Shown: positions 5,046 to 56,277 of the stretch, one piece after another
Layout: every line of letters begins with the position of its first letter
Position numbering within the stretch: the first letter of the stretch is position 1
Source of the DNA: a virus
Length of the DNA stretch: 64,000 nt
Direction: 5' to 3' (one strand)
Virus record (IMG/VR): IMGVR_UViG_3300026484_000390
Location: 1-64,000 of that record
Notes under the pieces: generated by a model
Told to the model about the DNA's origin: nothing
Seen by the model: only the letters and a program-made list of their open reading frames with translations
Databases searched by the model: none
Made by a program: the position numbers and the translations under genes

Positions 5046-7472
5046 ATGGCAAAACAATACGAATATGTCTTCAAGGCAAAAAATAACCTATACACACGAG
5101 AATATGATACAGTAACTAAACAAACTGAACTAAAAGTTGTTAAGCATATACCTGAAATTTATATTCCTTCAAAAGAAAAATCAAAATATGTATCATTACC
5201 AGAGAGAAATTTTCTTAAAAGAGTACCTTTTAAGACATTGAGTGAATATAAAGATCAAACTAAATTGTTTGAAAGTAATAATATTCCTATGTACGGTTTA
5301 AAGTCCGAACCTTTTGGGTATATAAGAGATAATTATGGTGACCCAGTTTCTAACAACCACGATTTTCAAACTCAATTCTTTGATATTGAAACAGCAGTTC
5401 TAGATAAAACAGTTGAGAAAGATGTATCTAAAAATGACTGGAAGCCAACAGGACACGAAAGAGCGGCGATGGCTACTATCACTTCTATTCAAATGTACGA
5501 TACAAAATTTAAACAATTTTATATATTAGGATTGGCAAAAGATTGGAATAACGATGATAATTTCTCTTCTGAGTACGGTGAAATTAAATATATTAAATGT
5601 GAAACAGAACGAGATTTACTAATTAAATATTTGACTATTATGGAAAGAACAAAACCACTAATTTTAAGTGGGTGGAACTCTGAAGGATATGATATTCCTT
5701 ATATTACAAATAGAATAATCAGAGTACTAGATGGTAGAGATGACTTATACGAGTTTGACGATAAAAAGAAAAGATGGTTATTTAATAGAAGTTGTCTAGA
5801 TGGTGAATATGTAAAACAATTATCCCCAGTAAATATGATTACACATAGAGAAGTTGAAAATAACTTTGGATTTCAAGATGAGTTTCAATGGGCCGGATTA
5901 ATTTTAGAAGATTACAAAGGACTTTATCACAAATATACTTTTGAAGTATTAACTTCTTATAGTTTGGATTCAGTTGCTAGTCACGAACTAGGAGCAAATA
6001 AAGTAGAGCACGATGAATATGCTGACTTTGCTGAATTTTACGAGAAAGACTTTGACCGTTTCATTAGATATGGCATTATCGATGTCCAACTATTGATTGA
6101 AATAGATAACAAACTCAACCTTATTAACTTGGCTAAATCAATAGCATATATTTGTGGCGTTTCTATGCCGGATATTAGAGGTACAGTGCGACAATGGAAT
6201 CAATATATGTTTAATAACTATGCCGATAAAGGATTTATGCTTCCACTAAAAGGTAAATTTGGTAAAAATGATACTGTTATTTTAGAACATGCAAATAATA
6301 TGGAGAACTTATCTCTAGAAAGAAAAAGGACTTTTTCTAGACTTTTAGCCAATCCTGAGTTACACGGACAAAAGTTCGCTGGTGGTATTACAAGAGGAAC
6401 AGCTAAGTTTTGGAGAGAAGTATTTTCACTAGACTTTGGTTCACTTTACCCGTCTTGTATCCAATGGGCCAATATCGGTATGGAAACTTTAATTCAGCCT
6501 AAAGACTTACATAAAGACTTATTAGATTTAAGAGCAAAATATGCTATATATTATGAAAAAGAAGTACCAAGTAAAGATTTAATTCAATTTGACTTTGCTT
6601 ATAGTAAAAATGTCCTTAACTATCCTGAAGCGTTAAAAGAAATGGAAGAAGTACTTACTAGACATAATGTTTCTATGACGCCAAATGGTATGTTTTTTAG
6701 AAAAGATAAAAGAAGTATTTTATCACAAACAATGGAAGATATTATTACACAAAGAAAAGTGCATAAAAGTGAAATGAAAGAACATTTTAAAACTATGCAA
6801 AAGATTAAAGATGTCAAAGCACAAGGTTGGGAAGATGAATATTACAGAGTTAGTGCTTTAGCAGATGGTTCAAATGTTATGCAAATGGCCTTAAAAATTC
6901 TTGTAAACTCAGCATATGGGGCTTTATCAAATGAGGCTACGACTTTTGCTGGAGATAAAGAATACTTTTCTGGAGCCGTTACAAGTTCTGCTAGGATAGC
7001 TAATTTACTTGCTGGTCAAGTTAATTCTAAAAAAGTAGATCAAATTGCTGGTATAAATGCTAAAGAAGTACAATACGGAATTAACTCGTTTCATGATTGG
7101 ATTCCTCAAATTGATACAGATAGTGTGGTGGGGGATAGTATAGTATATATAGATGGTGAAAAAATAAAAATAGAAGATTTATATGAAAATACCAAAGGCA
7201 GAATAGAAAAAAGAGATAAAAATAATTATATTAAGCATATAGATAAAGAAATATATACTTTAAGTCTTAATAAAGAAAAATATATAGTAGAAAATAAAAA
7301 AATAAAATATATAATGGCTCATAAAGTTAAAAAAAGAATGTTTAAAATAAAACATAAAGACACTGAAGTCATAGTTACTGAAGACCATAGTGTTATAGTC
7401 AAAAGAAATAATGAATTTCTTGATGTTAAACCCAAAGATATAATTCAAGGTGACAAAATTATTAAAATATAA
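5046..7472 (+). CDS. 43: Family B DNA polymerase N-terminal part plus N-half of split intein
   Basis: 808 residues. The polymerase part covers residues 1-692: 3'-5' exonuclease motif FFDIETA near 115, a later exo motif LSGWNSEGYDIPY near 212, Pol motif A as SLDFGSLYPS near 475, the fingers motif LKILVNSAYGA near 617, and motif C breaking off at PQIDTD. From Ser693 (base 7122) it is intein: GDSIVYIDGEKI is an intein block A, and VTEDHSVIV near 780 is block B with the usual His. The gene then stops. The rest of motif C resumes after HN/S in the gene at 8569. Trans-splicing would restore IDTD-SNYVS. Spliced polymerase would be about 977 residues; T4 gp43 has 898. Ser as first intein residue and motif C as insertion site are known for PolB inteins. 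Confidence 0.93.
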   Translation: MAKQYEYVFKAKNNLYTREYDTVTKQTELKVVKHIPEIYIPSKEKSKYVSLPERNFLKRVPFKTLSEYKDQTKLFESNNIPMYGLKSEPFGYIRDNYGDPVSNNHDFQTQFFDIETAVLDKTVEKDVSKNDWKPTGHERAAMATITSIQMYDTKFKQFYILGLAKDWNNDDNFSSEYGEIKYIKCETERDLLIKYLTIMERTKPLILSGWNSEGYDIPYITNRIIRVLDGRDDLYEFDDKKKRWLFNRSCLDGEYVKQLSPVNMITHREVENNFGFQDEFQWAGLILEDYKGLYHKYTFEVLTSYSLDSVASHELGANKVEHDEYADFAEFYEKDFDRFIRYGIIDVQLLIEIDNKLNLINLAKSIAYICGVSMPDIRGTVRQWNQYMFNNYADKGFMLPLKGKFGKNDTVILEHANNMENLSLERKRTFSRLLANPELHGQKFAGGITRGTAKFWREVFSLDFGSLYPSCIQWANIGMETLIQPKDLHKDLLDLRAKYAIYYEKEVPSKDLIQFDFAYSKNVLNYPEALKEMEEVLTRHNVSMTPNGMFFRKDKRSILSQTMEDIITQRKVHKSEMKEHFKTMQKIKDVKAQGWEDEYYRVSALADGSNVMQMALKILVNSAYGALSNEATTFAGDKEYFSGAVTSSARIANLLAGQVNSKKVDQIAGINAKEVQYGINSFHDWIPQIDTDSVVGDSIVYIDGEKIKIEDLYENTKGRIEKRDKNNYIKHIDKEIYTLSLNKEKYIVENKKIKYIMAHKVKKRMFKIKHKDTEVIVTEDHSVIVKRNNEFLDVKPKDIIQGDKIIKI

Positions 7473-7517: not shown

Positions 7518-8567
7518 ATGACTGAATGCATTATTTGTAAAGAAGATATTTTTAAGAATGTACCAAAAACATCAAAAGGAACTTATATAGTAGGTAAGTT
7601 GAAGAAGTTTCATAAAGAAATTTTAGATAACAATATTAAAGTGAAACCTAAAATGTGCTATAATTGTGCTGAAAATAAAATAGGCCATAAAATAATGAGA
7701 AGTCTATCTAATAAAGAAAGAAGTATAATTTATGATATTCCTTTAGAACAAACTAAAGGAATGACCAAAAATGGTTATTCTCTCAAAAAAGCAATTGAAT
7801 TGCATGGAGTAGAAACAGGCACCAGAATGTTTGAAGAATACAAAGAAAAACAAGCATATACCAATACATTAAAATACAAACAAGAAAAATATGGTATGAC
7901 CGAAGAAGAGTTTAAGGACTACAATAATTCAAGAGCCGTTACATTGAAGAATCAGACCAAAAAATACGGAGTGAAAGAAGGCACAGAAAGATTTGAAAAA
8001 TATAAGAATAAACAAAAAGAAACTGGTTGTTCATTAAACTATTTTCAAGATAAATATGGTCAGGATGACGGCAAAACATTCTATGGAGAATTAAACAATA
8101 GAAAAGCAAATACCTTAAATAACTTTATTTTAAGACATGGTAATGAATTAGGGATAGAGAAATTTGAAAAATATATTCAAACTGAAAAAGGATTTTATTC
8201 TAAGGAGTCAATTCGGTTTTTTGAGGAAGAATTAAGTAATATTATTATAAAATATAAAGTATATTATAAAGACAAAGAATTTGGACTAATGGACATAGAA
8301 AATAATACCTATTATAAGTATGATTTAGTTATTCCGGAATTAAAATTATGTGTTGAATATAACGGTGATTTATTTCATGCCAACCCCAAAATGTTTGAAA
8401 GCAAAGATAGACCAAATCCTTTTAATCGAGAACTAACTTCTGAAGATATATGGTTAAAAGATAAGAATAAGCTGGATTTAATAAAATCTAAAGGATATAA
8501 AGTATTAGTTATATGGGCAAGTGATAAAAATAAAGAGCAAAAAATAAAAGAGTTTATAAAGGAATAA
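7518..8567 (+). CDS. Free-standing homing endonuclease, Vsr-like, inside split-intein gap
   Basis: 349 residues. An N-terminal CIIC...CYNC pair suggests a zinc ribbon. Residues 95-230 contain tandem motifs of the type KKYGVKEGTERFEKYKNKQ and RHGNELGIEKFEKY, a repeat common in phage homing endonucleases for DNA recognition. The C-terminal 120 residues hold the nuclease fold: YDLVIPELKLCVEYNGDLFH, then a Trp-containing segment and a final strand YKVLVIWASD. This matches the Vsr-like/EDxHD endonuclease group described beside split inteins and in I-Bth0305I. It lies exactly between the two intein halves, so it probably cuts intein-less polymerase genes at the motif C codons. It has its own late promoter and RBS AGAGAGG. 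Confidence 0.82.
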   Translation: MTECIICKEDIFKNVPKTSKGTYIVGKLKKFHKEILDNNIKVKPKMCYNCAENKIGHKIMRSLSNKERSIIYDIPLEQTKGMTKNGYSLKKAIELHGVETGTRMFEEYKEKQAYTNTLKYKQEKYGMTEEEFKDYNNSRAVTLKNQTKKYGVKEGTERFEKYKNKQKETGCSLNYFQDKYGQDDGKTFYGELNNRKANTLNNFILRHGNELGIEKFEKYIQTEKGFYSKESIRFFEEELSNIIIKYKVYYKDKEFGLMDIENNTYYKYDLVIPELKLCVEYNGDLFHANPKMFESKDRPNPFNRELTSEDIWLKDKNKLDLIKSKGYKVLVIWASDKNKEQKIKEFIKE

Positions 8568-8568
8568 A

Positions 8569-9543
8569 ATGATAGAAACAGAAGAATTTATAGTTGAAGA
8601 TATGGGTGTACAAGAACAATGGGTTTATGATATTGAGGTTGAGGATAATCATAACTTTTTTGCTAATGATATATGTGTTCATAATAGTAATTATGTAAGT
8701 ATTGAACCAGTTGTTAAAAAGAAATTTGGAACTGATTATTTAAAAACAACAGAAAGAATAAGAATTACAGAATTTATTGAAAACTATATCAACAAAGTTT
8801 CGTTACCTTTAACTTATGATGCTCTTAATAATATTTTAAGCAAATCTCATAATGCATATTTACCAGAAAAACTGGTTGAAGACCCTGAAGTAATTTGTGA
8901 TAACTTTATATCGATTGCTCCTAAAATGTACTTCGCTAGAAAGTGGTGGGATGAAGGATTAACCTTAAGTGCACCTAAGTTAAAAATTACTGGATTAAGC
9001 ACAATTAGAAGTACTACCCCAAAATATTATAGAAAAGAACTTGCTTCAGCTATGGATATTTTAATAGATGGTGATATTCCTAAAGTGATTGAATACATAG
9101 AAACAGTTAGAGAAGGAACTATGACACAAGCACCTGAAGATATTGCAATTAACCAAGGTGTATCTAGTTTGGATTATACCTGGGATGAAAATATTAAAAA
9201 ATTCAGAAGATGGACAGGAGAGAAATACTTAGGAGCACCAGTAAATTCTAGAGCTTGTCTTACTCATAATCTGTATATTGAAAAAAATAAATTAACTATT
9301 AAAGATATTGAACCAGGAGATAAAATTTCTTTTTTATATATGAAAACTCCTAATCCTACCTTTAATTCAAGTAACGCTTTTGGATTTAGAGATACGAAAG
9401 TATTTGATGGAGAACTTAGAAAATACATAGATCGCAATTTAATGTTTGAAAAAGGCTTTGAGACACCAATTAGACTTATAACAGATCCGTTAAACTGGGA
9501 TTTAACTCCTAAAGACGAACAAATTGATGACGATGAATGGTAG
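8569..9543 (+). CDS. 43: C-half of split intein plus C-terminal DNA polymerase
   Basis: 324 residues. Residues 1-39 are intein: VYDIEVEDNHNFFANDICVHN contains block F (DIEV..NHNF) and ends in block G His-Asn. Residue 40 is Ser, the +1 nucleophile, starting SNYVSIEPV, the other half of polymerase motif C. The remaining 285 residues are palm and thumb; the end, with FLYMKTPNP and YIDRNLMFEKGFETP, matches the gp43 C-terminus. The start ATG lies one base after the endonuclease stop with RBS AAAGGA. The product has no function until spliced in trans with the protein from 5046-7472. Confidence 0.92.
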   Translation: MIETEEFIVEDMGVQEQWVYDIEVEDNHNFFANDICVHNSNYVSIEPVVKKKFGTDYLKTTERIRITEFIENYINKVSLPLTYDALNNILSKSHNAYLPEKLVEDPEVICDNFISIAPKMYFARKWWDEGLTLSAPKLKITGLSTIRSTTPKYYRKELASAMDILIDGDIPKVIEYIETVREGTMTQAPEDIAINQGVSSLDYTWDENIKKFRRWTGEKYLGAPVNSRACLTHNLYIEKNKLTIKDIEPGDKISFLYMKTPNPTFNSSNAFGFRDTKVFDGELRKYIDRNLMFEKGFETPIRLITDPLNWDLTPKDEQIDDDEW

Positions 9544-14692: not shown

Positions 14693-14713
14693 TAAAAACA
14701 AATGGAGAAACAA

Positions 14714-16243
14714 ATGAAAAAATATAGTGATTTAATCTTTGAAGCAGCAAATAAAACAAAATTGGATATTAGTATTCAAGCAGCAGGAAAATTTTTAACT
14801 TCAAATAAAAGAATAGAAGATTTTTTTAATGCTGATGTTATTGTTGAACACAAGACAGATGGTGTAAAAATTACAGCAATGAAAATAGCAAGTAATGGAA
14901 CTTTAGATGATTGGATTATTGCTTATAAGGGTAATATTTTATATGAGGGTGAATTTGAATTTGCACCAAAAACAAATGTAAAGAAAAGATCAATTGGAGC
15001 TAGTCAATTTAGTTTTGTTGTTGAACACTTTGCCGATATTGCTAAAGATACTAAAAAAATCCCAGTAGGTACAGAATTGTTTGTTGAATTCCTTATGAAT
15101 AAACCAACATTAAGTTCTAATTATACAAGAAAACACGGTATGATTTTAATCGCTCATACCAAATCTTCTTATAAAGTTAAAAATGGTTTATTATTAACAA
15201 AACCAGGAATTTTTGATATTTCACATAGAGATGAATACGCTAAAATGGCAAATTTAGATGTACCAGCATTATTATTTAAAGGTAGAATGGGAACACAAAA
15301 AGATTTTGAAAGCGGAATTATTAATACAAAACTTAAGAGTCTATTTAACGAACGAAGTAATGCTATGAATTGGATCACAGTTGAGATTTTACTTGATGAT
15401 ATAAGAGAGTTATTTCTTGATGTCGAGAGCCGGTATGGCGGGAAAGAAGAAGGCGTCGTAATTAAATATGATAATGTTATACTTAAATTTCAACAGGATT
15501 ATCAATTGGATCAAGAAGCAAGAAGACAAATTAAACTTAAATATCAAGACGAAAATCCAGAAGTTGAAACTCAATATTGGAATAATGTTAGGCTAGCTGC
15601 AATGGAAATTACAGGTGAGATTCAAGTAAAACCAAAATCTGATTTAAAAGATTTAGTAAAAGAATTATCTCAAGGCTTAAAAGATTATAAATTAAACTTT
15701 AAACATCCCAAAAAAGATAAAACAAATATCGAAGATGATATTCAACTTACTGCTAAACAAATTATTATGAGAAAACTTAAGGGAAACAATAATGCTTTAG
15801 TTCTTGGAAAATTTAGAATCTTAACAAAGGCGCATGCTGGTATAATTAAAGAAGGTTTGAAAAAATTTGATGGTGTTGTAGTGGCATTAATTAGTTCAAA
15901 AGAAACAAAAAGTACAAAAGAACTTAGAAGAAAAATGTTGGAATTAACATTCGGTGATAAAATTGAAATATTTGAAGCTACTTCAGGTAATCTTATGACA
16001 CTTATGAATAGAACAAATGAAAATATTAACTGGATTATGGCTGGTTCTGATAGGGTTAAAGCTTATGAAAAAATGTTAGAAAGAAATAAAGATGTTAAGG
16101 TATATGAAATACCGAGGACAGATGAAGATATTTCAGCTTCAAAAGTTATAGCAGACATTACAAATGAAGCTTATTTTAAAAAAAATACACCTAAAGAAAT
16201 ACATTCATTATATAATGAAATATTAGAAGTCTATAAAGATTAA
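14714..16243 (+). CDS. Capsid-targeted polynucleotide ligase / nucleotidylyltransferase fusion
   Basis: 509 residues from ATG 14714, chosen because GGAGAAACAA precedes it; an ATG at 14702 overlaps that RBS. Leader MKKYSDLIFE-AANK matches a capsid-targeting peptide cut after Glu10. Residues 15-310 form a ligase-type nucleotidyltransferase: VEHKTDGVKI is motif I (K-x-D-G lysine), GTELFVEFL motif III, KEEGVVIKY motif IV and VILKF motif V. From about 350 a second domain of the HxGH nucleotidylyltransferase superfamily begins: NNALVLGKFRILTKAHAGII (T-x-A-H in place of T-x-G-H), WIMAGSDR and DISASKVIADI (ISxT/S motif), as in NMN adenylyltransferases and NadR. A virion-delivered RNA ligase joined to an NAD-making type domain would suit RNA repair and NAD restoration against host defences. 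The fusion is seen; activities are inferred. Confidence 0.82.
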   Translation: MKKYSDLIFEAANKTKLDISIQAAGKFLTSNKRIEDFFNADVIVEHKTDGVKITAMKIASNGTLDDWIIAYKGNILYEGEFEFAPKTNVKKRSIGASQFSFVVEHFADIAKDTKKIPVGTELFVEFLMNKPTLSSNYTRKHGMILIAHTKSSYKVKNGLLLTKPGIFDISHRDEYAKMANLDVPALLFKGRMGTQKDFESGIINTKLKSLFNERSNAMNWITVEILLDDIRELFLDVESRYGGKEEGVVIKYDNVILKFQQDYQLDQEARRQIKLKYQDENPEVETQYWNNVRLAAMEITGEIQVKPKSDLKDLVKELSQGLKDYKLNFKHPKKDKTNIEDDIQLTAKQIIMRKLKGNNNALVLGKFRILTKAHAGIIKEGLKKFDGVVVALISSKETKSTKELRRKMLELTFGDKIEIFEATSGNLMTLMNRTNENINWIMAGSDRVKAYEKMLERNKDVKVYEIPRTDEDISASKVIADITNEAYFKKNTPKEIHSLYNEILEVYKD

Positions 16244-17074: not shown

Positions 17075-17085
17075 ATCCTATATTT
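17059..17085. terminator. Bidirectional terminator hairpin
   Basis: AAATATAGG (17059-17067) pairs with CCTATATTT (17077-17085). It separates the plus-strand late genes from the convergent minus-strand module, overlapping both gene ends. Confidence 0.65.
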
Positions 17086-18334
17086 AAAACCTATAGCTAA
17101 AAACAATTTTAGTTATTTCAGTTTTTTTCCTTTGTATTCCAATATATTCTTCTTGTGATAATGAAGAACCTACACCACCAATTTGTAGTGCTTCTTTAGA
17201 CTCAAGATAGGCATAATTTATTTGCATAAAAGTACTTTTACCAAGTCTGTAACCATAATTAATAAAATAGCTATTATTTCTAATATCGAATAATTGTGTA
17301 CAATTTCCTGTATAAGGTGCCCCCACATTACTAGACAACCATCCTCCTTTAGTGTGAAACCATTCGAAATTAATAAAACTTTCATTCCCAAATGTTTCAA
17401 AATCTTTTCTAATTCCCAATAAATTTGCTGCACTTAGTTGTATCTTACCAGTACCGAAATTAAAACTACTTGGTGCTGTTTTTACCATCTTTGGGTCAAT
17501 TTCAGAGTCGGCTAACATTTCAAATTTGGCATTATTTGATAAATTCTTAATTCTCGAAAAACCTATACTATCATAAATACTCCATCCTGAAAATTCTGAG
17601 TCATCATATACAATCCCAAATCCAATAGTGTTACTCTCTGCTATTTTATGTTTAGTATAATAAGTATTAGCATAAATATATTCTGTTGTAGCGTGAATCT
17701 TTCCTTTAGAAAACTTATGAATAACTGCCATACCTTTAGTATTATCAATTAAATGTGGAATGGCATGCATCCCGCTTGGAATGTTCAAAGTATTAGTTTG
17801 AGAAAAATTTACAAGTATTTTATGATTTTCATTTATTTTAAATTTAAAAAATATACCCAAAGGGTCTATATCACTCAGGATACTTAATCCTTCTCCGTCA
17901 CTCATATAGTCTTTTGTATATTCCATAGGAAAACCATTACCCATAGGCACTATTCCCATTCCCACTAAAATCTTTGGTGATAAATTATAAGATATATATA
18001 AACCCCTAAAAAATAAATCCTGGCTGTTAAAAAGTTTATGAAAATTGGCATTTTCATTATTTCTACTTGATTTTGTACCTGTTTTATAGGCATAAGGGAC
18101 GGCATTAAATCTGAAATTTTTATAATGATATTTTATTTTCATTTCAAGACTTATATAGTTCCCTGTTTCTTCGTAGCTTTTTTTATTTAATAAAGTTTTT
18201 TTAATATTAAATATTTTATCATTAAATTCGCCAGAAAGTCTCCAGTTATTTTGTTCTTTGATTTCATTAGCATTTAATCCACTTAATATACTTAATGTTA
18301 ATATTATTCCTAATATTTTACTTTTAAAATTCAT
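17084..18334 (-). CDS. Outer-membrane beta-barrel (porin-like) protein
   Basis: 416 residues. Residues 1-23 (basic start, hydrophobic LGIILTLSILSGLNANE) form a Sec signal peptide with a likely cut after LNA. The remainder is rich in alternating beta-strand patterns such as FRFNAVPYAYKTGT, YFINYGYRLGKSTFMQINYAY, with acidic turns, and the chain ends KIVFSYRF with the C-terminal Phe used for BAM-mediated assembly. Length and pattern fit Campylobacterota porin-type proteins. A phage has no outer membrane, so this acts in the host envelope; a single pair of cysteines is not obvious. It is the last gene of a late minus-strand module and starts within one base of the upstream gene's end. A role in blocking receptor, changing permeability before lysis, or superinfection exclusion is inference. 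Probably acquired from a host. Confidence 0.82.
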   Translation of the reverse strand: MNFKSKILGIILTLSILSGLNANEIKEQNNWRLSGEFNDKIFNIKKTLLNKKSYEETGNYISLEMKIKYHYKNFRFNAVPYAYKTGTKSSRNNENANFHKLFNSQDLFFRGLYISYNLSPKILVGMGIVPMGNGFPMEYTKDYMSDGEGLSILSDIDPLGIFFKFKINENHKILVNFSQTNTLNIPSGMHAIPHLIDNTKGMAVIHKFSKGKIHATTEYIYANTYYTKHKIAESNTIGFGIVYDDSEFSGWSIYDSIGFSRIKNLSNNAKFEMLADSEIDPKMVKTAPSSFNFGTGKIQLSAANLLGIRKDFETFGNESFINFEWFHTKGGWLSSNVGAPYTGNCTQLFDIRNNSYFINYGYRLGKSTFMQINYAYLESKEALQIGGVGSSLSQEEYIGIQRKKTEITKIVFSYRF

Positions 18335-18630
18335 TATTCTATACCTCTTTCATATTTAATGGTTTTGTTTTGATATTTTTTTCTAAAGAAGTTCAAAATC
18401 ATTTTTCTTTCTTCATAATTTATAACAAAATTATAATCTTTAGTTTTTTCTTTTGAATTGAAAACCCTTATCCAACCTTTATAAGACTTAGTGTCAATAT
18501 CCATTTTATTTTCTCTAAAAATTCTAACAACTTTGTTATAAGTAAAAAATTCCAATTCTTTCGGTATGGCAGTAGTTTGAAGGAAGATTATTATAATTAA
18601 TATAATTGGTATTTTATTTATTTTTTTCAT
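18334..18630 (-). CDS. Small exported protein of the porin module
   Basis: 98 residues. N-terminus MKKINKIPIILIIIIFLQTTA is a signal peptide or anchor. The rest (KELEFFTYNKVVRIFRENKM and on) is basic, without cysteines. Located between histidine kinase and porin, touching the porin start (shared base 18334), so translationally coupled. No family recognised. A periplasmic partner of either the kinase sensor domain or the porin is a guess from position. Confidence 0.7.
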   Translation of the reverse strand: MKKINKIPIILIIIIFLQTTAIPKELEFFTYNKVVRIFRENKMDIDTKSYKGWIRVFNSKEKTKDYNFVINYEERKMILNFFRKKYQNKTIKYERGIE

Positions 18631-18640
18631 ATCTCCTCCA

Positions 18641-19918
18641 TTATTTTATTAATATTGGCAACCTTAATTCAATTGTAGTTCCTTTATTGCTTGAGGAAAT
18701 CAATTCAATTTCTCCGCCAGCATTATTAATAATAAGTTTATTCAAATACATACCGTTACCTCTTATACCACTATCTGATTTTTTTGTACTAAAATTAGCC
18801 GAAAAAATCTTCTTTTGTACTTTTAACGGTATCCCTTTACCATTATCTATAATTCTAAAATATAATGTATTATCTTCTACTTTATTAAATAAAATAAAAA
18901 TTTTAGAAGCATTTGCCTCAAGTGAATTTTTAAAATGATTTAATAAAATGCTAAGAAGATCGGCATTCTTAAGTTTGTCAGTTCCTATTTTATAATTATC
19001 TAATTTTTGGTCAATCTTATATTCAAAATTTGTATTACTAATATTTATAATTTTAAAACCTCCATCAATAATATTTTTAAGAGATTTATTTCCATTACTA
19101 TACCTAAGATGTTTAAAACCTTTCATCTTTTCAAGAACGGCGTATATTTGTTCTGATGAAGTTTTAATAAATTCAAAATCCTTATTTAATTTTACTAATC
19201 GTTTATTTCTTTGAATCCTCTCTTCAGGCAGAGTAGTTATTTCTTCAGTTATTATATATTCCTCTATTAAAAAGGTACTTAATTCATTATGTATTTTTTC
19301 TATTTTATTATCAATTACTTCTAAAGGGGTATTTAATTCATGATGTATATTTTCGGTTATATTAATCATACTTTTGTTAGCTAATAAGGCTTCAGAACCA
19401 GCATTTATTAAGATTGATTCTTCTTTTTCTTTTTTAATAGCGTTAAATAACGGCCCTAAATATATTATTATTAAAAAGGGCAACAAAAATGCCATAGTTT
19501 TTAGATATTCCGTAATGTTTTTCCTTGTGTTTAAAGCATAATAAGATTTAGAAGTATTGTTATAAATATTTAATTCATATTTATCGTTTATATAAAGAAC
19601 TTTAGTAAGTTTAGAAAAAATATTGGTATTTCGAGAACCCACTTTAAGGTGGCCTTTTTCATCCGGAATAAATTGTTTATTATTAAAAATATTAGTAACT
19701 TTAGTACAAGCAACTATTTTACATAATTGCTCTCTATCGATTTCTCCATATTCTTTAATATTATTGTCTATTTGATTATTTATATAATAAGCGTGATCGT
19801 TAAAAGCCATAGCAAAACTGGCAAAAGCAACAGCATTTATTAAAAATAAAAAGATTAAAATATTTAGAATATACTTTCTAATTATTGAGAAAGCATCCTT
19901 TAGATTGATATCATTCAT
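18641..19918 (-). CDS. Membrane sensor histidine kinase
   Basis: 425 residues. A transmembrane helix at about 12-35, an extracytoplasmic segment of about 95 residues, and a second helix MAFLLPFLIIIYLGPLF near 140. The dimerisation box has ENIHHELNTPLEVID, with the phospho-accepting His in the HELNTP context typical of kinases. The ATPase domain carries the N box LLNHFKNSLEA, the G1 box RIIDNGKGIP, an F box and G2 GIRGNGMYL, so all catalytic elements are intact. Complete kinases are rare in phages. It starts at the TAATG junction with the stop of a 25-residue membrane peptide. The partner is probably the receiver-domain protein at 20079-20756 in the same module. Signal unknown. Confidence 0.92.
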   Translation of the reverse strand: MNDINLKDAFSIIRKYILNILIFLFLINAVAFASFAMAFNDHAYYINNQIDNNIKEYGEIDREQLCKIVACTKVTNIFNNKQFIPDEKGHLKVGSRNTNIFSKLTKVLYINDKYELNIYNNTSKSYYALNTRKNITEYLKTMAFLLPFLIIIYLGPLFNAIKKEKEESILINAGSEALLANKSMINITENIHHELNTPLEVIDNKIEKIHNELSTFLIEEYIITEEITTLPEERIQRNKRLVKLNKDFEFIKTSSEQIYAVLEKMKGFKHLRYSNGNKSLKNIIDGGFKIINISNTNFEYKIDQKLDNYKIGTDKLKNADLLSILLNHFKNSLEANASKIFILFNKVEDNTLYFRIIDNGKGIPLKVQKKIFSANFSTKKSDSGIRGNGMYLNKLIINNAGGEIELISSSNKGTTIELRLPILIK

Positions 19919-19995
19919 TAGTGTTCTGTCCTTACATTTAAATATAACATAATCACTAATGAAAAAACTACTATACTACGGAACATTTTTTTCAT
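19918..19995 (-). CDS. 25-residue membrane peptide upstream of histidine kinase
   Basis: Starts MKKMFRSIVVFSLVIMLYL: basic N-terminus and one hydrophobic helix. It has a strong RBS AAAAGGAG and sits right behind a late promoter. Its TAA overlaps the kinase ATG by one base (TAATG). It may be a leader peptide coupling translation or a real single-pass regulator of the kinase. Confidence 0.6.
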   Translation of the reverse strand: MKKMFRSIVVFSLVIMLYLNVRTEH

Positions 19996-20014
19996 AAATA
20001 ACTCCTTTTGTAAA

Positions 20015-20022
20015 TATTTATA
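20015..20022 (-). promoter_or_regulatory. Late promoter TATAAATA for kinase-porin genes
   Basis: Exact TATAAATA on the minus strand, 20 bases before the 25-residue peptide gene. It divides the module into two transcription units, this one and that from 21249. Confidence 0.72.
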
Positions 20023-20078
20023 ATTAAGGCTTTTCTTAAATACTGCTATGCAGTATTTAAAAATAGAATTAAAAAGTT

Positions 20079-20756
20079 TTACTTCTTAAATATGCATTTT
20101 AAAATATAATCCCGTCTTGTTTTTATATCCATGCTAGTTTTAAATAATATTTTCTTTTTAATATCACCACCAGTTATTTTCTTAAATTGATTAATCAATT
20201 TTTCATTAGACTTAATATAGGGATTTAAGTTATTACCCGTATAAAACAAATATTCTAAATCCGGATTATTACTATACATCATATTAAATGCATCAACACC
20301 CGTATATTTAATATTTCCTTTTTCAGTCATTTTAGAACCGCCTAATGTAATATCAATAATAGCCCATTTAATATTTAAATTAGATAATTTCTCATATAAT
20401 AATTTAAGAGTAAAAGCAGCATGAACCCCACTAATTGTTAAAAGATTAACTTCTTTTAAGTTAATTATGCCTTCTTCGCTAAAGTATTCCATATCATCTT
20501 TAAGAAAACTTACCATTCCTTCATTATCATCTATTATTAAAATAGTATCTAATTTTGGATTATATTCTGGAAGTTCAATCGCATTTTCACATTCATGAAC
20601 AAATTGACCCTTTTTACTACATAATTTTCTTAATGGACATTCATTACAATTAACATCAATAGTAATTTTATCATCTCCAAATAAAGCATCCGCAGTCATT
20701 TCTTCATCCACTAATTTTTCTTCTTTCTTAAACACATTTTTTAAAAATTTAAACAT
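20079..20756 (-). CDS. Receiver-domain (response-regulator-like) protein with Cys cluster
   Basis: 225 residues. Residues 36-56 contain CNECPLRKLCSKKGQFVHEC, four cysteines that may bind zinc or an Fe-S cluster. From about 70 a CheY-like receiver follows: TILIIDDNEGMV (acid pair), KWAIIDITLGG (phospho-Asp), EYLFYTGN (Thr) and KILFKTSMD (Lys), all conserved functional residues. There is no DNA-binding output domain, so it would act by protein contact, with the Cys region as output. In the same late module as the histidine kinase, therefore its likely phosphorylation partner. Followed 13 bases upstream by the tail-anchored protein gene. Confidence 0.85.
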   Translation of the reverse strand: MFKFLKNVFKKEEKLVDEEMTADALFGDDKITIDVNCNECPLRKLCSKKGQFVHECENAIELPEYNPKLDTILIIDDNEGMVSFLKDDMEYFSEEGIINLKEVNLLTISGVHAAFTLKLLYEKLSNLNIKWAIIDITLGGSKMTEKGNIKYTGVDAFNMMYSNNPDLEYLFYTGNNLNPYIKSNEKLINQFKKITGGDIKKKILFKTSMDIKTRRDYILKCIFKK

Positions 20757-20767
20757 CTGTTTTCTCC

Positions 20768-21229
20768 TTATAATAATTTTGATAGTTCTTTGATTATTTC
20801 AATAAACATATCTGGAGCCAATACAGCCCCAGCTGCTAATGTGATAACTGCCAGCGCTGTTAATATCATTTTTACATTTTTCATAATGTAACCAGTACTT
20901 TTAACTTTTTCCCATATTGTCATATTATCAAAAGTGTCAGTTTTAATTTCCTTTTCTTCTATTAATTTTTGAACTAACGTTAGTTTGTTTCTGATTGATT
21001 CATTAAAAGAGTCAATAACAATCTCAGCAAATATTGTTTGATTAGTTTCCAACTTATCATTAATAAAAACCATAAATTGCAATAATTCTTTATGATCTGG
21101 ATATTTAGCACTTAAATCTATTATTGTATTATGAAATTCCTTAGTATTTGTACCAAGTGCTTCAAGCTGGGTATTAAAATCTTTATGTAATTGTTCTAAT
21201 GATATTTCCATTCTTTTAAAATCTTTCAC
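20768..21229 (-). CDS. Helical protein with C-terminal membrane anchor
   Basis: 153 residues. Residues 1-105 are charged and alpha-helical with coiled-coil-like spacing; 116-140 (MILTALAVITLAAGAVLAP) are a single hydrophobic helix near the C-terminus. This is an N-in, tail-anchored layout. First gene of the late minus-strand module, with RBS AAAAGGAGG and promoter at 21249. Possible membrane platform for the receiver protein, or a lysis-related membrane protein; sequence alone does not decide. Confidence 0.7.
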   Translation of the reverse strand: MKDFKRMEISLEQLHKDFNTQLEALGTNTKEFHNTIIDLSAKYPDHKELLQFMVFINDKLETNQTIFAEIVIDSFNESIRNKLTLVQKLIEEKEIKTDTFDNMTIWEKVKSTGYIMKNVKMILTALAVITLAAGAVLAPDMFIEIIKELSKLL

Positions 21230-21248
21230 ATTAGCCTCCTTTTAAAGT

Positions 21249-21256
21249 TATTTATA
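21249..21256 (-). promoter_or_regulatory. Late promoter TATAAATA at head of minus-strand module
   Basis: Exact TATAAATA on the minus strand, 20 bases before the ATG at 21229. Confidence 0.7.
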
Positions 21257-21312: not shown

Positions 21313-22488
21313 ATGATAAAGAGTGATTTGCCAAAATGTGATTTTTGTAATAGTGCACAAACAATAGATAATAAGGTAATAGAGGCTGAAAGTCATGGCA
21401 TTTGTCAAAGTTGTGCCGAAACAGCACTTTATTTGATGCAATCTCAAGAATTTATTGCAGATGTAAACGATGAAACTGAAGTTAGTGAAAATAAAAATAT
21501 TTCCCCGAAACAGTACAAAGAAGTTTTAGATATGTTTGTAATCGGTCAAACTAATGCCAAAAAAGTATTAAGTGTTGCCATTTTTAATCACTTACAAAGG
21601 ATTAAAAATCCAGATTTAAAAATAGACAAAAGTAACGTATTATTTATAGGACCCACAGGTTCAGGCAAAACCTATCTTGCAGAAACGATAGCAAAACATT
21701 TAGATATTCCATTGGCAATTGTCAATACTACAAGTTTAACAGCAGCAGGTTATATTGGTGAAGATGTTTCAAGTGTTTTAGAAAGGTTATGGAAAGATGC
21801 TGGTGAAGATATTGAAAAGGCAGAAAGGGGAATTATATTTCTTGATGAAATAGACAAAAATGCAACAGCAGGTGGTGGCACAAAAAATAAAGATGTATCT
21901 GGTAAAGCAGTTCAACAAGAATTACTTAAAATACTTGAGGGCGATATTGTTAAAATTTATCCAGAAGGTTCTTCTAAAAACAGAAAAGCAGGCGCAGCTA
22001 TTGAAATAAACACTAAGGATATTTTATTTATTGCGGGTGGTGCTTTTGTTGGGCTTAAAGATAAACCAGGTGTTCAACTGTCAGTACTTGGACAAGTTCG
22101 AAAAGATAGTAATACTACAAATATTCAAATGCAAGAAATGCTCAATAATTTTGGAATTATCCCAGAATTTTATGGACGATTTCCTAATATAGTAGAACTT
22201 GAAGAATTAGATTTAAAAAGTATGGAAAATATTATGACTGTTCCAGAAGGCAATATAGTTCAGCAATATAAGGATTTATTTAGTCTAAGTGAAGTTGATT
22301 TAAGTTTTTCTAAAAAATTTATAGATACAGTAGCAAATGAAGCACTAAAAGTAAAAACAGGGGCAAGAGGTTTAAGAACTATAATGGAGGATAAACTTAA
22401 TAATGTTATGTTTAATATTGAGGATTATAAAGGTTGTAATATAACTTTAGATTATAAGTATAATAAGGTTAAGATTATTAAATCTTAA
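21313..22488 (+). CDS. clpX: ClpX-like AAA+ unfoldase
   Basis: 391 residues (E. coli ClpX 424). An N-terminal C4 zinc domain is present: CDFCNSAQ with CQSC 26 residues on. Walker A is GPTGSGKTYLAE, the pore loop is AGYIGED, Walker B IIFLDEIDK, and the C-terminal GARGLRTIMED matches ClpX sensor 2 (GAR). The region where bacterial ClpX carries the IGF loop that docks on ClpP reads SVLGQVRKDS, without an IGF tripeptide, so it may unfold proteins without feeding ClpP, or use a variant. No ClpP is in the window. AT-rich promoter TATATAATATATAAT upstream and RBS AAAGGGA. Diverges from the late module. Roles could be replisome remodelling or targeting host proteins. Confidence 0.92.
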   Translation: MIKSDLPKCDFCNSAQTIDNKVIEAESHGICQSCAETALYLMQSQEFIADVNDETEVSENKNISPKQYKEVLDMFVIGQTNAKKVLSVAIFNHLQRIKNPDLKIDKSNVLFIGPTGSGKTYLAETIAKHLDIPLAIVNTTSLTAAGYIGEDVSSVLERLWKDAGEDIEKAERGIIFLDEIDKNATAGGGTKNKDVSGKAVQQELLKILEGDIVKIYPEGSSKNRKAGAAIEINTKDILFIAGGAFVGLKDKPGVQLSVLGQVRKDSNTTNIQMQEMLNNFGIIPEFYGRFPNIVELEELDLKSMENIMTVPEGNIVQQYKDLFSLSEVDLSFSKKFIDTVANEALKVKTGARGLRTIMEDKLNNVMFNIEDYKGCNITLDYKYNKVKIIKS

Positions 22489-44305: not shown

Positions 44306-45202
44306 CTAGTTAAAAATTTGAAGATCTGATAAATCAACATTGTATTTTCCAAGAAAGCCTGATACACCATTTCCACCATTATAATATTTTTTATCTAATG
44401 GATTAATTGCCATACCTGTTCTATCCATTACAAAATAAATTGGTTCACCAGTTTCTGAGTTAATTGCTTCCACCCATTTTGTCATATAAGGAGAATAAAT
44501 GGTACTACCTTTAGAGATGCCGTTCCCTTTGATGCCGAAAATTATTGAATCAGTACCATTATTTTGATGAGTATAATCAATATAATAATCAACACTAGCT
44601 ATTCTTCCTAAATAAGAAGGGCTATTATCATTTTCACCTGCTCTAGCACTATCTCCCAATGTCCCTGCTAGTAAAGAAGCAACATTTGAACTAACAATTG
44701 CCCAAGCCTGTGGGCTTCTATTATCTGAAATTGGTAAATCACAAGTACCTTTATTGACTGCAATTGCTATACTTTGGCCGACTGCCCATAAATTGGCATC
44801 ATAGTCTTCACCACTGAATGTCAAAGTATCCTTTGTTTCTGCCCTTTCTTTGACCATTGCTAAAAAATCATTATCTATTTTATAAACTATTTCATCTGAA
44901 ATATAAGTTGCTAGTACTTCATAAAAACTTTCACCATATATACTCTGCATATCTTGAATAGCTTCTACTGTAAACTCTGTTCTTATTTTTCTAGTTATAG
45001 CAGTAATATCTGCTTTTGCTATTGTTAATTTATCTTCTGTTTTATCCCATTCTGCACCTGAAATTATTCCAACAGGCCCTTTTAATGGCTGAATGTCAGA
45101 TACTCTTCTTGCTATACTTTTTTTAACAAGAATTTTATCAATAGCCCCTATTAACTCTGCCTGATTAATCATTTCATTTTCATTAATACTTTGTTCTGCC
45201 AT
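44306..45202 (-). CDS. gp23/gp24-like capsid protein
   Basis: 298 residues. RRVSDIQPLKGPVG resembles the DLVGEQPMTKPTG segment of gp23; RTEFTVEAIQDMQSIYGES followed by ATYISDEIVYKIDNDFL matches the HK97-fold spine helix E-x-AQDM-x-x-xHG and ExxxEINRE of gp23/gp24. A WAIVSSNVASLL and a late YMGRTG-like region with FVMDRTGMAINP follow. At 298 residues it is much shorter than gp23 (521) or gp24 (427), so it may be a vertex, decoration or minor capsid protein. Minus strand, own late promoter 45222-45229. Confidence 0.68.
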   Translation of the reverse strand: MAEQSINENEMINQAELIGAIDKILVKKSIARRVSDIQPLKGPVGIISGAEWDKTEDKLTIAKADITAITRKIRTEFTVEAIQDMQSIYGESFYEVLATYISDEIVYKIDNDFLAMVKERAETKDTLTFSGEDYDANLWAVGQSIAIAVNKGTCDLPISDNRSPQAWAIVSSNVASLLAGTLGDSARAGENDNSPSYLGRIASVDYYIDYTHQNNGTDSIIFGIKGNGISKGSTIYSPYMTKWVEAINSETGEPIYFVMDRTGMAINPLDKKYYNGGNGVSGFLGKYNVDLSDLQIFN

Positions 45203-55461: not shown

Positions 55462-56277
55462 ATGGCAATACCAATAGACGAAATATTTGGTGATAACAAT
55501 CAAGCGAGTAATGGCGGAGGAACACTCCAAGGAGAAGGATTACGAATGGGCATTCCTAGTATCTTTATTAGAACTGGAGGATGCAATTTAACTTGTTCAG
55601 GATTTGGTTGTACAATTAAATCGGCATTAGATAAAGAAACAATTATAACCGGGTGCGATTCTATACATGCAGTGAATGTGAAGCATTTTAAGCATACTTG
55701 GACTTATTACGATACTGCGTCTGATTTAGTTCAGGCTATTCTTAAACATTATAAAATTAGACCAGAAGGGAATTCCGAAAAGCCTGATTTAGTTTTTACT
55801 GGTGGAGAACCTCTTATTCATCACAGTGACCCTTCTTTAATAGGTGCTTTAGAATATTTCATATCTAGAGGGCATAAAATCTATTTTGAAACAAACGGTA
55901 CCATTCAAATAGATTTTGAGAAATATCCGATTTTTAAAAGAGTTTCTTTTAGTATGTCCGTAAAAATGAGTGCATCGGGGGAAAATAAAAGTAAAAGATG
56001 GAAACCTGAAGTTGTTAATCAATATTTGCTTAATACAGAGGGCTCCTATTTTAAATTTGTTTTAAGTAAAGTATCTATAGAAACAGAAAAGGCAGAAGTG
56101 TTTGAATTTCTTAATCAGGTTCCTACTTTTGGGATAGTTTACTGTATGCCTTTAGGTGAGACTTCTAAAGAAGTACAAGTTAATGCAAAAGCGGTTTACA
56201 ACTTTGCCGCAGAACATGGTTTCAGATATTCAGATAGATTACATATTAGAATTTTTGAGGATTTGCGAGGAGTTTAA
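55462..56277 (+). CDS. queE: 7-carboxy-7-deazaguanine synthase (radical SAM)
   Basis: 271 residues. LQGEGLRMGIPSIFIRTGGCNLTC is the QueE start with the substrate loop QGEG; the cluster cysteines are C-N-L-T-C-S-G-F-G-C. Spacing CX3CX4C differs from the usual CX3CX2C, so the third ligand should be checked. LVFTGGEPLIH gives the radical SAM GGEP motif and YFETNGT follows. QueE converts 6-carboxytetrahydropterin to CDG, the step that forms the deazapurine ring. With the DpdA-like enzyme at 57810 this points to 7-deazaguanine replacing G in phage DNA, as in Campylobacter phages. Confidence 0.88.
   Translation: MAIPIDEIFGDNNQASNGGGTLQGEGLRMGIPSIFIRTGGCNLTCSGFGCTIKSALDKETIITGCDSIHAVNVKHFKHTWTYYDTASDLVQAILKHYKIRPEGNSEKPDLVFTGGEPLIHHSDPSLIGALEYFISRGHKIYFETNGTIQIDFEKYPIFKRVSFSMSVKMSASGENKSKRWKPEVVNQYLLNTEGSYFKFVLSKVSIETEKAEVFEFLNQVPTFGIVYCMPLGETSKEVQVNAKAVYNFAAEHGFRYSDRLHIRIFEDLRGV

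Follow-up and report, generated by a model that had tools for sequence, protein, structure and literature searches.

A gene cluster encoding a membrane sensor histidine kinase and a receiver protein was identified in a T4-like phage fragment, together with a predicted tail-anchored protein, a small exported protein and a porin-type barrel. The cluster very probably represents a functional two-component module that is specific to phages. Because it often lies next to genes whose products burst the host cell, we propose, although only tentatively, that it controls lysis: the virus would use a late, envelope-reading two-component system to adjust the time of its exit.

Organization and origin of the locus

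The analyzed DNA (hereafter the window) comprises positions 1 to 64,000 of the 68,490-base virus record IMGVR_UViG_3300026484_000390 from IMG/VR. The record carries T4-type replication genes encoding a DnaB-like helicase, family B DNA polymerase, exonuclease, primase, single-stranded DNA-binding protein and clamp loader, and a major head protein gene is also present in the window. The closest polymerases among those of isolated phages (approximately 30% identity) belong to Campylobacter phages, so a host from the Campylobacterota is possible.

The module (positions 17084-21256, minus strand) consists of five substantial open reading frames (ORFs), here named TA, RR, HK, SE and BA in the order of transcription, which are tightly packed except for a gap of approximately 160 bp between RR and HK. 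A preliminary description of this DNA had counted seven elements but listed six; all six exist as ORFs, each in its assigned place on the minus strand. Its designations of a tail-anchored helical protein, a receiver with intact phosphorylation residues, a full sensor histidine kinase, a small exported protein and a barrel protein with a signal peptide and terminal Phe are borne out by the features of the individual products described below.

The GC content of the module (25.3%) is close to that of its flanks (26.6 and 26.9%) and homologues are almost absent from the bacterial species scanned, so its recent capture from a host is not supported. The adjoining gene (21313-22488) encodes a ClpX-like AAA+ protein with a C4 zinc-finger-like N-terminus, and the same neighbor occurs in contigs L002-L004.

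The sensor kinase and the receiver

The HK gene (18641..19918, minus strand) encodes a 425-aa membrane sensor histidine kinase. The protein matches the Pfam family HATPase_c (E=1.3e-15) as well as many curated NCBIfam kinases, and hydropathy analysis indicated two transmembrane (TM) helices (residues 20-38 and 143-161). The H-box (HHELNTP), N-box (NHFKNSLEA), G1 box (DNGKG) and G2 box (RGNGMYL) are intact, and residues H193, N327, N331, G387 and G389 are invariant across the 19 HK sequences aligned. The periplasmic domain bears Cys66 and Cys71. Among the relatives, the boxes are degenerate or deleted in L039 and L003; the latter has lost the G1 box and has BA spread over two frames, defects explained by decay or assembly error. 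We infer that HK autophosphorylates and transfers the phosphate to RR.

RR (20079..20756, minus strand; 225 aa) is a receiver without an output domain. The window RR alone matched no Pfam family, and 3 of the 21 RR members, the window protein not among them, matched Response_reg at E<=0.01 (best 3.3e-4). Sequence-profile searches of the PDB with RR, BA and SE gave nothing convincing, while a larger RR profile reached CheY at E=0.017; the identity of the receiver was settled by fold comparison. In the AlphaFold2 (AF2) model, pLDDT is at least 85 over approximately residues 70-225, and the receiver occupies approximately residues 68-225. Its best match among PDB receivers is the ComE REC domain (Z 12.8, rmsd 2.9, 128 residues aligned), and CheY and Spo0F align with Z of 11-12. 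The model supports a CheY-type receiver fold of alternating β-strands and α-helices, with a predicted β-hairpin between strand 3 and helix 3 and with no DNA-binding output domain. Across 21 relatives, Asp76/77, Asp135 and Lys206 do not vary, and at least 90% of the sequences keep Thr173.

The N-terminal 60-70 residues of RR, modeled with low confidence, contain four Cys. This cluster had been noted as a feature of the receiver, but 4-5 Cys are found in 7 of the 21 RR sequences and few or none in the remainder, so it was rejected as a trait of the family. Its all-or-none distribution suggests an optional metal site.

The tail-anchored protein and the envelope proteins

The first gene of the module, TA (20768..21229, minus strand; GTG start), encodes a helical protein of 153 aa with a single C-terminal membrane segment, located by hydropathy at about residues 115-143. 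Proteins of TA-like architecture are encoded directly upstream of RR in the relatives. TA has no sequence likeness to any known holin or antiholin in Pfam and PHROG, and no lysis PHROG is matched by TA or SE.

An ORF for a hydrophobic peptide of 25 aa (19918..19995, minus strand) lies in the RR-HK gap and had been described as a membrane peptide of the module. The ORF exists, but the relatives have no counterpart (in L002 the RR-HK spacing is only 14 nt). It was rejected as a conserved component and probably does not belong to the conserved module.

SE (18334..18630, minus strand; 98 aa) is a small protein whose N-terminal hydrophobic segment predicts export. It contains the motif K-S-x-K-G-W-x-R, in which W53 and R55 are invariant in 13 aligned members, and no relative outside the module was found in Pfam, PHROG or sequence-profile searches of the PDB.

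BA (17084..18334, minus strand; 416 aa) was modeled by AF2 (pTM 0.75) as a 16-stranded barrel with an N-terminal helix (residues 3-21) and Phe416 as the terminal residue; the terminal Phe is present in 8 of 8 aligned relatives. A Foldseek search gave an E value of 8.7e-13. The model aligns with PorB (Z 23.0, rmsd 2.5, 271 residues aligned) and also with Omp32 and OmpF; OprO/OprP-type porins are matched too, no better than general porins. These comparisons support a porin-type outer-membrane barrel.

Late-type promoter

The late-type promoter element TATAAATA occurs 32 times in the window compared with 24.5 expected, an unremarkable number that is not significant; only the test of position is informative. 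The element lies at -26 to -33 of the start codon in 11 genes (mean 0.2 and maximum 2 for shifted stretches). One copy (21249..21256, minus strand) is at -27 of TA; ten other window genes, the head-protein gene (also -27) among them, have it at a matching position. Since a T4-type promoter is thus placed at -27 of TA, expression of the module late in infection is supported, as had been presumed. In T4-like relatives the element is kept before TA (at -28 in L002 and L004, -23 in L028 and -34 in L033); it is mostly absent upstream of TA in non-T4 relatives, as expected if other late promoters are used there. A second copy (20015..20022, minus strand) is followed after 27 nt by the ATG of the 25-aa ORF and after 104 nt by HK. 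Of the two exact promoters first attributed to the module, the TA site stands, while the other precedes an ORF that has no counterpart in the relatives.

Conservation of the module among viruses

IMG/VR was scanned with HK, RR and TA alignments, and the fetched loci were searched with six-frame profiles. An HK family member is carried by 31 records (window included), nearly all of them viral contigs. Whether related phages carry the genes separately had been set beforehand as a test of the module; they do not, as 27 of the 31 records have TA-RR-HK complete, in a single order and all on the same strand, although in the four most distant (L067 and L069-L071) TA was assigned by its place, size and C-terminal membrane segment and not by a profile match. 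The exceptions are L006 and L039 (no recognizable TA), L025 (no RR) and L013 (truncated where the contig ends). SE comes after HK in 13 records, and in 11 of these BA comes next; BA without SE was never seen. The linkage of six genes foreseen in the preliminary description therefore holds for the TA-RR-HK core, with SE-BA as an optional addition, but not for the 25-aa peptide.

Pairwise distances of RR and HK are strongly correlated (r=0.88, 17 members, 0/1000 permutations), and those of BA and HK are correlated as well (r=0.57, 12/1000 permutations). The contigs with the module range from T4-like ones to those without a Gp23 match and reach 273 kb, which indicates that the module crosses phage groups.

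The HK profile was also run against 84,980 species of bacteria and archaea, in a scan that relies on short conserved motifs and so could miss divergent bacterial relatives; it revealed one true relative: L028, a 5.8-kb contig of a Cloacimonadota metagenome-assembled genome (MAG) carrying TA-RR-HK, which is probably itself viral. L029 (Paenibacillaceae) was rejected as a generic kinase match and not a relative of the module. Among isolate phages, no match was found for the RR and BA of the window, the RR of L022 and L037 or the HK of L021, and the window HK gave three weak kinase-domain matches only. No RR match was detected in plasmids.

The sensor side of the module is variable. SE and BA accompany only kinases with a periplasmic domain, usually one with a Cys-x4-Cys pair; the kinases of L037 and L038 have no periplasmic domain, and SE and BA are missing from both loci. 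In L007 and L061 a membrane protein of approximately 200 aa with a Cys-rich periplasmic part is encoded between RR and HK, and in L023 (7415-8219) two extra receiver-like proteins directly follow HK. By this comparison TA-RR-HK is the constant part and the sensor-side parts are exchangeable, from which it follows that the output should lie in TA or RR.

Association with lysis genes

Genes of the lysis machinery (for endolysin, holin or spanins) adjoin the module in eight viral contigs, which belong to several phage groups. Directly upstream of the module, L037 and L038 encode a GTA_holin_3TM holin together with a GH108 endolysin. In L072, TA-RR-HK-SE-BA is followed by genes for a small holin-like protein with two TM segments, two spanins (one Rz-like, the other a lipoprotein) and a phrog_465 endolysin; a homologue of the same holin-like protein and spanins are found immediately upstream of TA in L056. 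An endolysin and a spanin-like pair precede the module in L061, an endolysin lies near it in L023, an overlapping spanin-like pair is placed beside it in L027, and a DUF5675 protein and a 3-TM protein in L017. A gene near the module of L024 (3541-4074, minus strand) encodes an S-adenosylmethionine lyase-like protein (PF23780), which is likely anti-restriction.

A lysis gene was located within about 2.5 kb of the module in 6 of 11 records (1.0 expected, P about 1e-4), a selection-biased count that covers only records with a located, family-scored lysis gene and uses families chosen after they had been sighted beside the module; moreover, some of these records are related and hence not independent. 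For phrog_465 alone, excluding the record that led to it, the association is weak (2 of 6 near the module, P=0.05). Five further records have a located lysis gene that lies far from the module. Because several unrelated lysis cassettes are involved, these data suggest a repeated association of the module with lysis genes. The earlier idea that the module serves to time lysis thus gains independent support from the holin, spanin and endolysin neighbors in several phage groups, but not from the T4-like members, the window included, in which no lysis gene is adjacent.

Possible role of the module

Few cases of lytic phages sensing their surroundings are known; these include T4 lysis inhibition, a Vibrio cholerae phage and phages that read quorum signals. 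If the module controls lysis, BA would be inserted late in infection into the outer membrane, SE would enter the periplasm, and HK and TA would reside in the inner membrane. BA, SE and the periplasmic domain of HK would form the input side, and a change in the envelope (an adsorbing phage, loss of integrity or a solute) would act on HK via SE and BA. HK would then autophosphorylate and pass the phosphate to RR, which would bind TA at the inner membrane, and TA would tune the holin step or the release of endolysin. Since RR has no DNA-binding domain and TA is its constant preceding neighbor, RR most likely acts via TA. We infer the envelope signal, the RR-TA contact and the effect on lysis; the steps from HK onward draw on what is known of the protein family, and the TA step on the constant neighborhood of the gene and the predicted topology of its product. 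More speculative still is the proposal that such modules form a widespread, phage-specific class with TA as effector, constituting the first lysis-timing phosphorelay, with the porin and periplasmic protein as a trans-envelope antenna and with exchangeable sensor parts.

Superinfection exclusion or a change of receptors is an unlikely alternative, in which BA would replace or mask host outer-membrane proteins while the kinase sensed a second phage and TA excluded it. The porin-type barrel predicted for BA, the inner-membrane location of TA indicated by hydropathy and the late expression, suited to protecting an infected cell, fit this explanation, and there are known examples of prophage porins with an influence on phage sensitivity (Lc/NmpC of the lambdoid phage PA-2). 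However, well over half of the modules have neither BA nor SE while TA-RR-HK persists, so the constant element is not the porin, and the adjoining lysis genes would be left unexplained.

Interference with host two-component systems seems improbable. Here the phage HK or RR would drain or feed the phosphate of host regulators and thereby alter host transcription, a role for which a stand-alone receiver resembling Spo0F or CheY would be suitable and for which PIT4, a phage protein acting on host two-component systems, provides a precedent (PMC10714779). The strong covariation of RR and HK argues instead for a private pair, and TA would have no explanation. Least probable is an auxiliary nutrient or stress circuit of the Pho type, sensing a limiting solute and raising its uptake via the phage porin: phosphorus-acquisition genes have been reported in phages (PMC10987575) and OprO/OprP-type porins are among the BA matches (not above general porins), but RR lacks a DNA-binding output domain, TA would have no role, BA is absent from many members and late expression is poor timing for uptake.

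Comparison with known systems

The module shares kinase boxes, a two-TM sensor, the receiver fold and its acidic pocket with bacterial two-component systems (HisKA/HATPase_c kinases with CheY/Spo0F-type receivers). Unlike these, it is phage-encoded, has an obligatory tail-anchored partner and has no DNA-binding output, and its RR escapes Pfam in 18 of 21 cases and has the predicted hairpin between strand 3 and helix 3.

In T4 lysis inhibition, the periplasm is sensed by RI, a small exported antiholin that postpones lysis (PMC8385771, PMC11413866). That system (holin T, periplasmic antiholin RI and cytoplasmic RIII) resembles the module in its late membrane and periplasmic phage proteins, but it has no kinase or receiver; SE gave no sequence match at E<=0.001 to PDB chains, RI-T entries included. 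Another receiver-like domain of phage genomes, cREC of jumbo phages, is a divergent Rec domain described as linked to NAD-processing enzymes and never to histidine kinases (PMC7824862), whereas RR almost always adjoins HK and retains the phosphorylation residues. BA has the 16-strand fold and terminal Phe of general porins (PorB, Omp32, OmpF) but shares only about 10% sequence identity with them, is phage-encoded and lies in an operon with a kinase.

No phage-specific kinase-receiver pair with TA, SE or BA partners was found described in open-access papers, in agreement with the preliminary statement that no described system of this composition was known. The single ingredients, namely two-component systems, porins and the inhibition of lysis by periplasmic proteins, are already known; their combination in a phage module appears to be new. 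If the proposed control of lysis is true, a conserved phage-specific phosphorelay beside lysis genes would provide viruses with a new, general means of deciding when to exit the host, lysis tuning would become testable by standard two-component methods, and full sensor kinases would count among the stable components of phage genomes, not as stray host genes.

Other features of the window

The family B DNA polymerase gene is divided into two ORFs (5046-7472 and 8569-9543), interrupted by an unrelated gene (7518-8567; phrog_22677) with its own late-type promoter. The split is common to contigs L003 and L007, and the polymerase gene is intact in other relatives. A Gp23/Gp24-type head protein gene (44306-45202), preceded by TATAAATA at -27, is located on the minus strand, alone amid plus-strand genes. 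The product of 14702-16243 is a nucleotidyltransferase (CTP_transf_like) fused to a long N-terminal region (phrog_27149), kept in L002 and L018. Finally, 55462-56277 encodes a QueE-like radical SAM protein, a hint of 7-deazaguanine modification of DNA or RNA.
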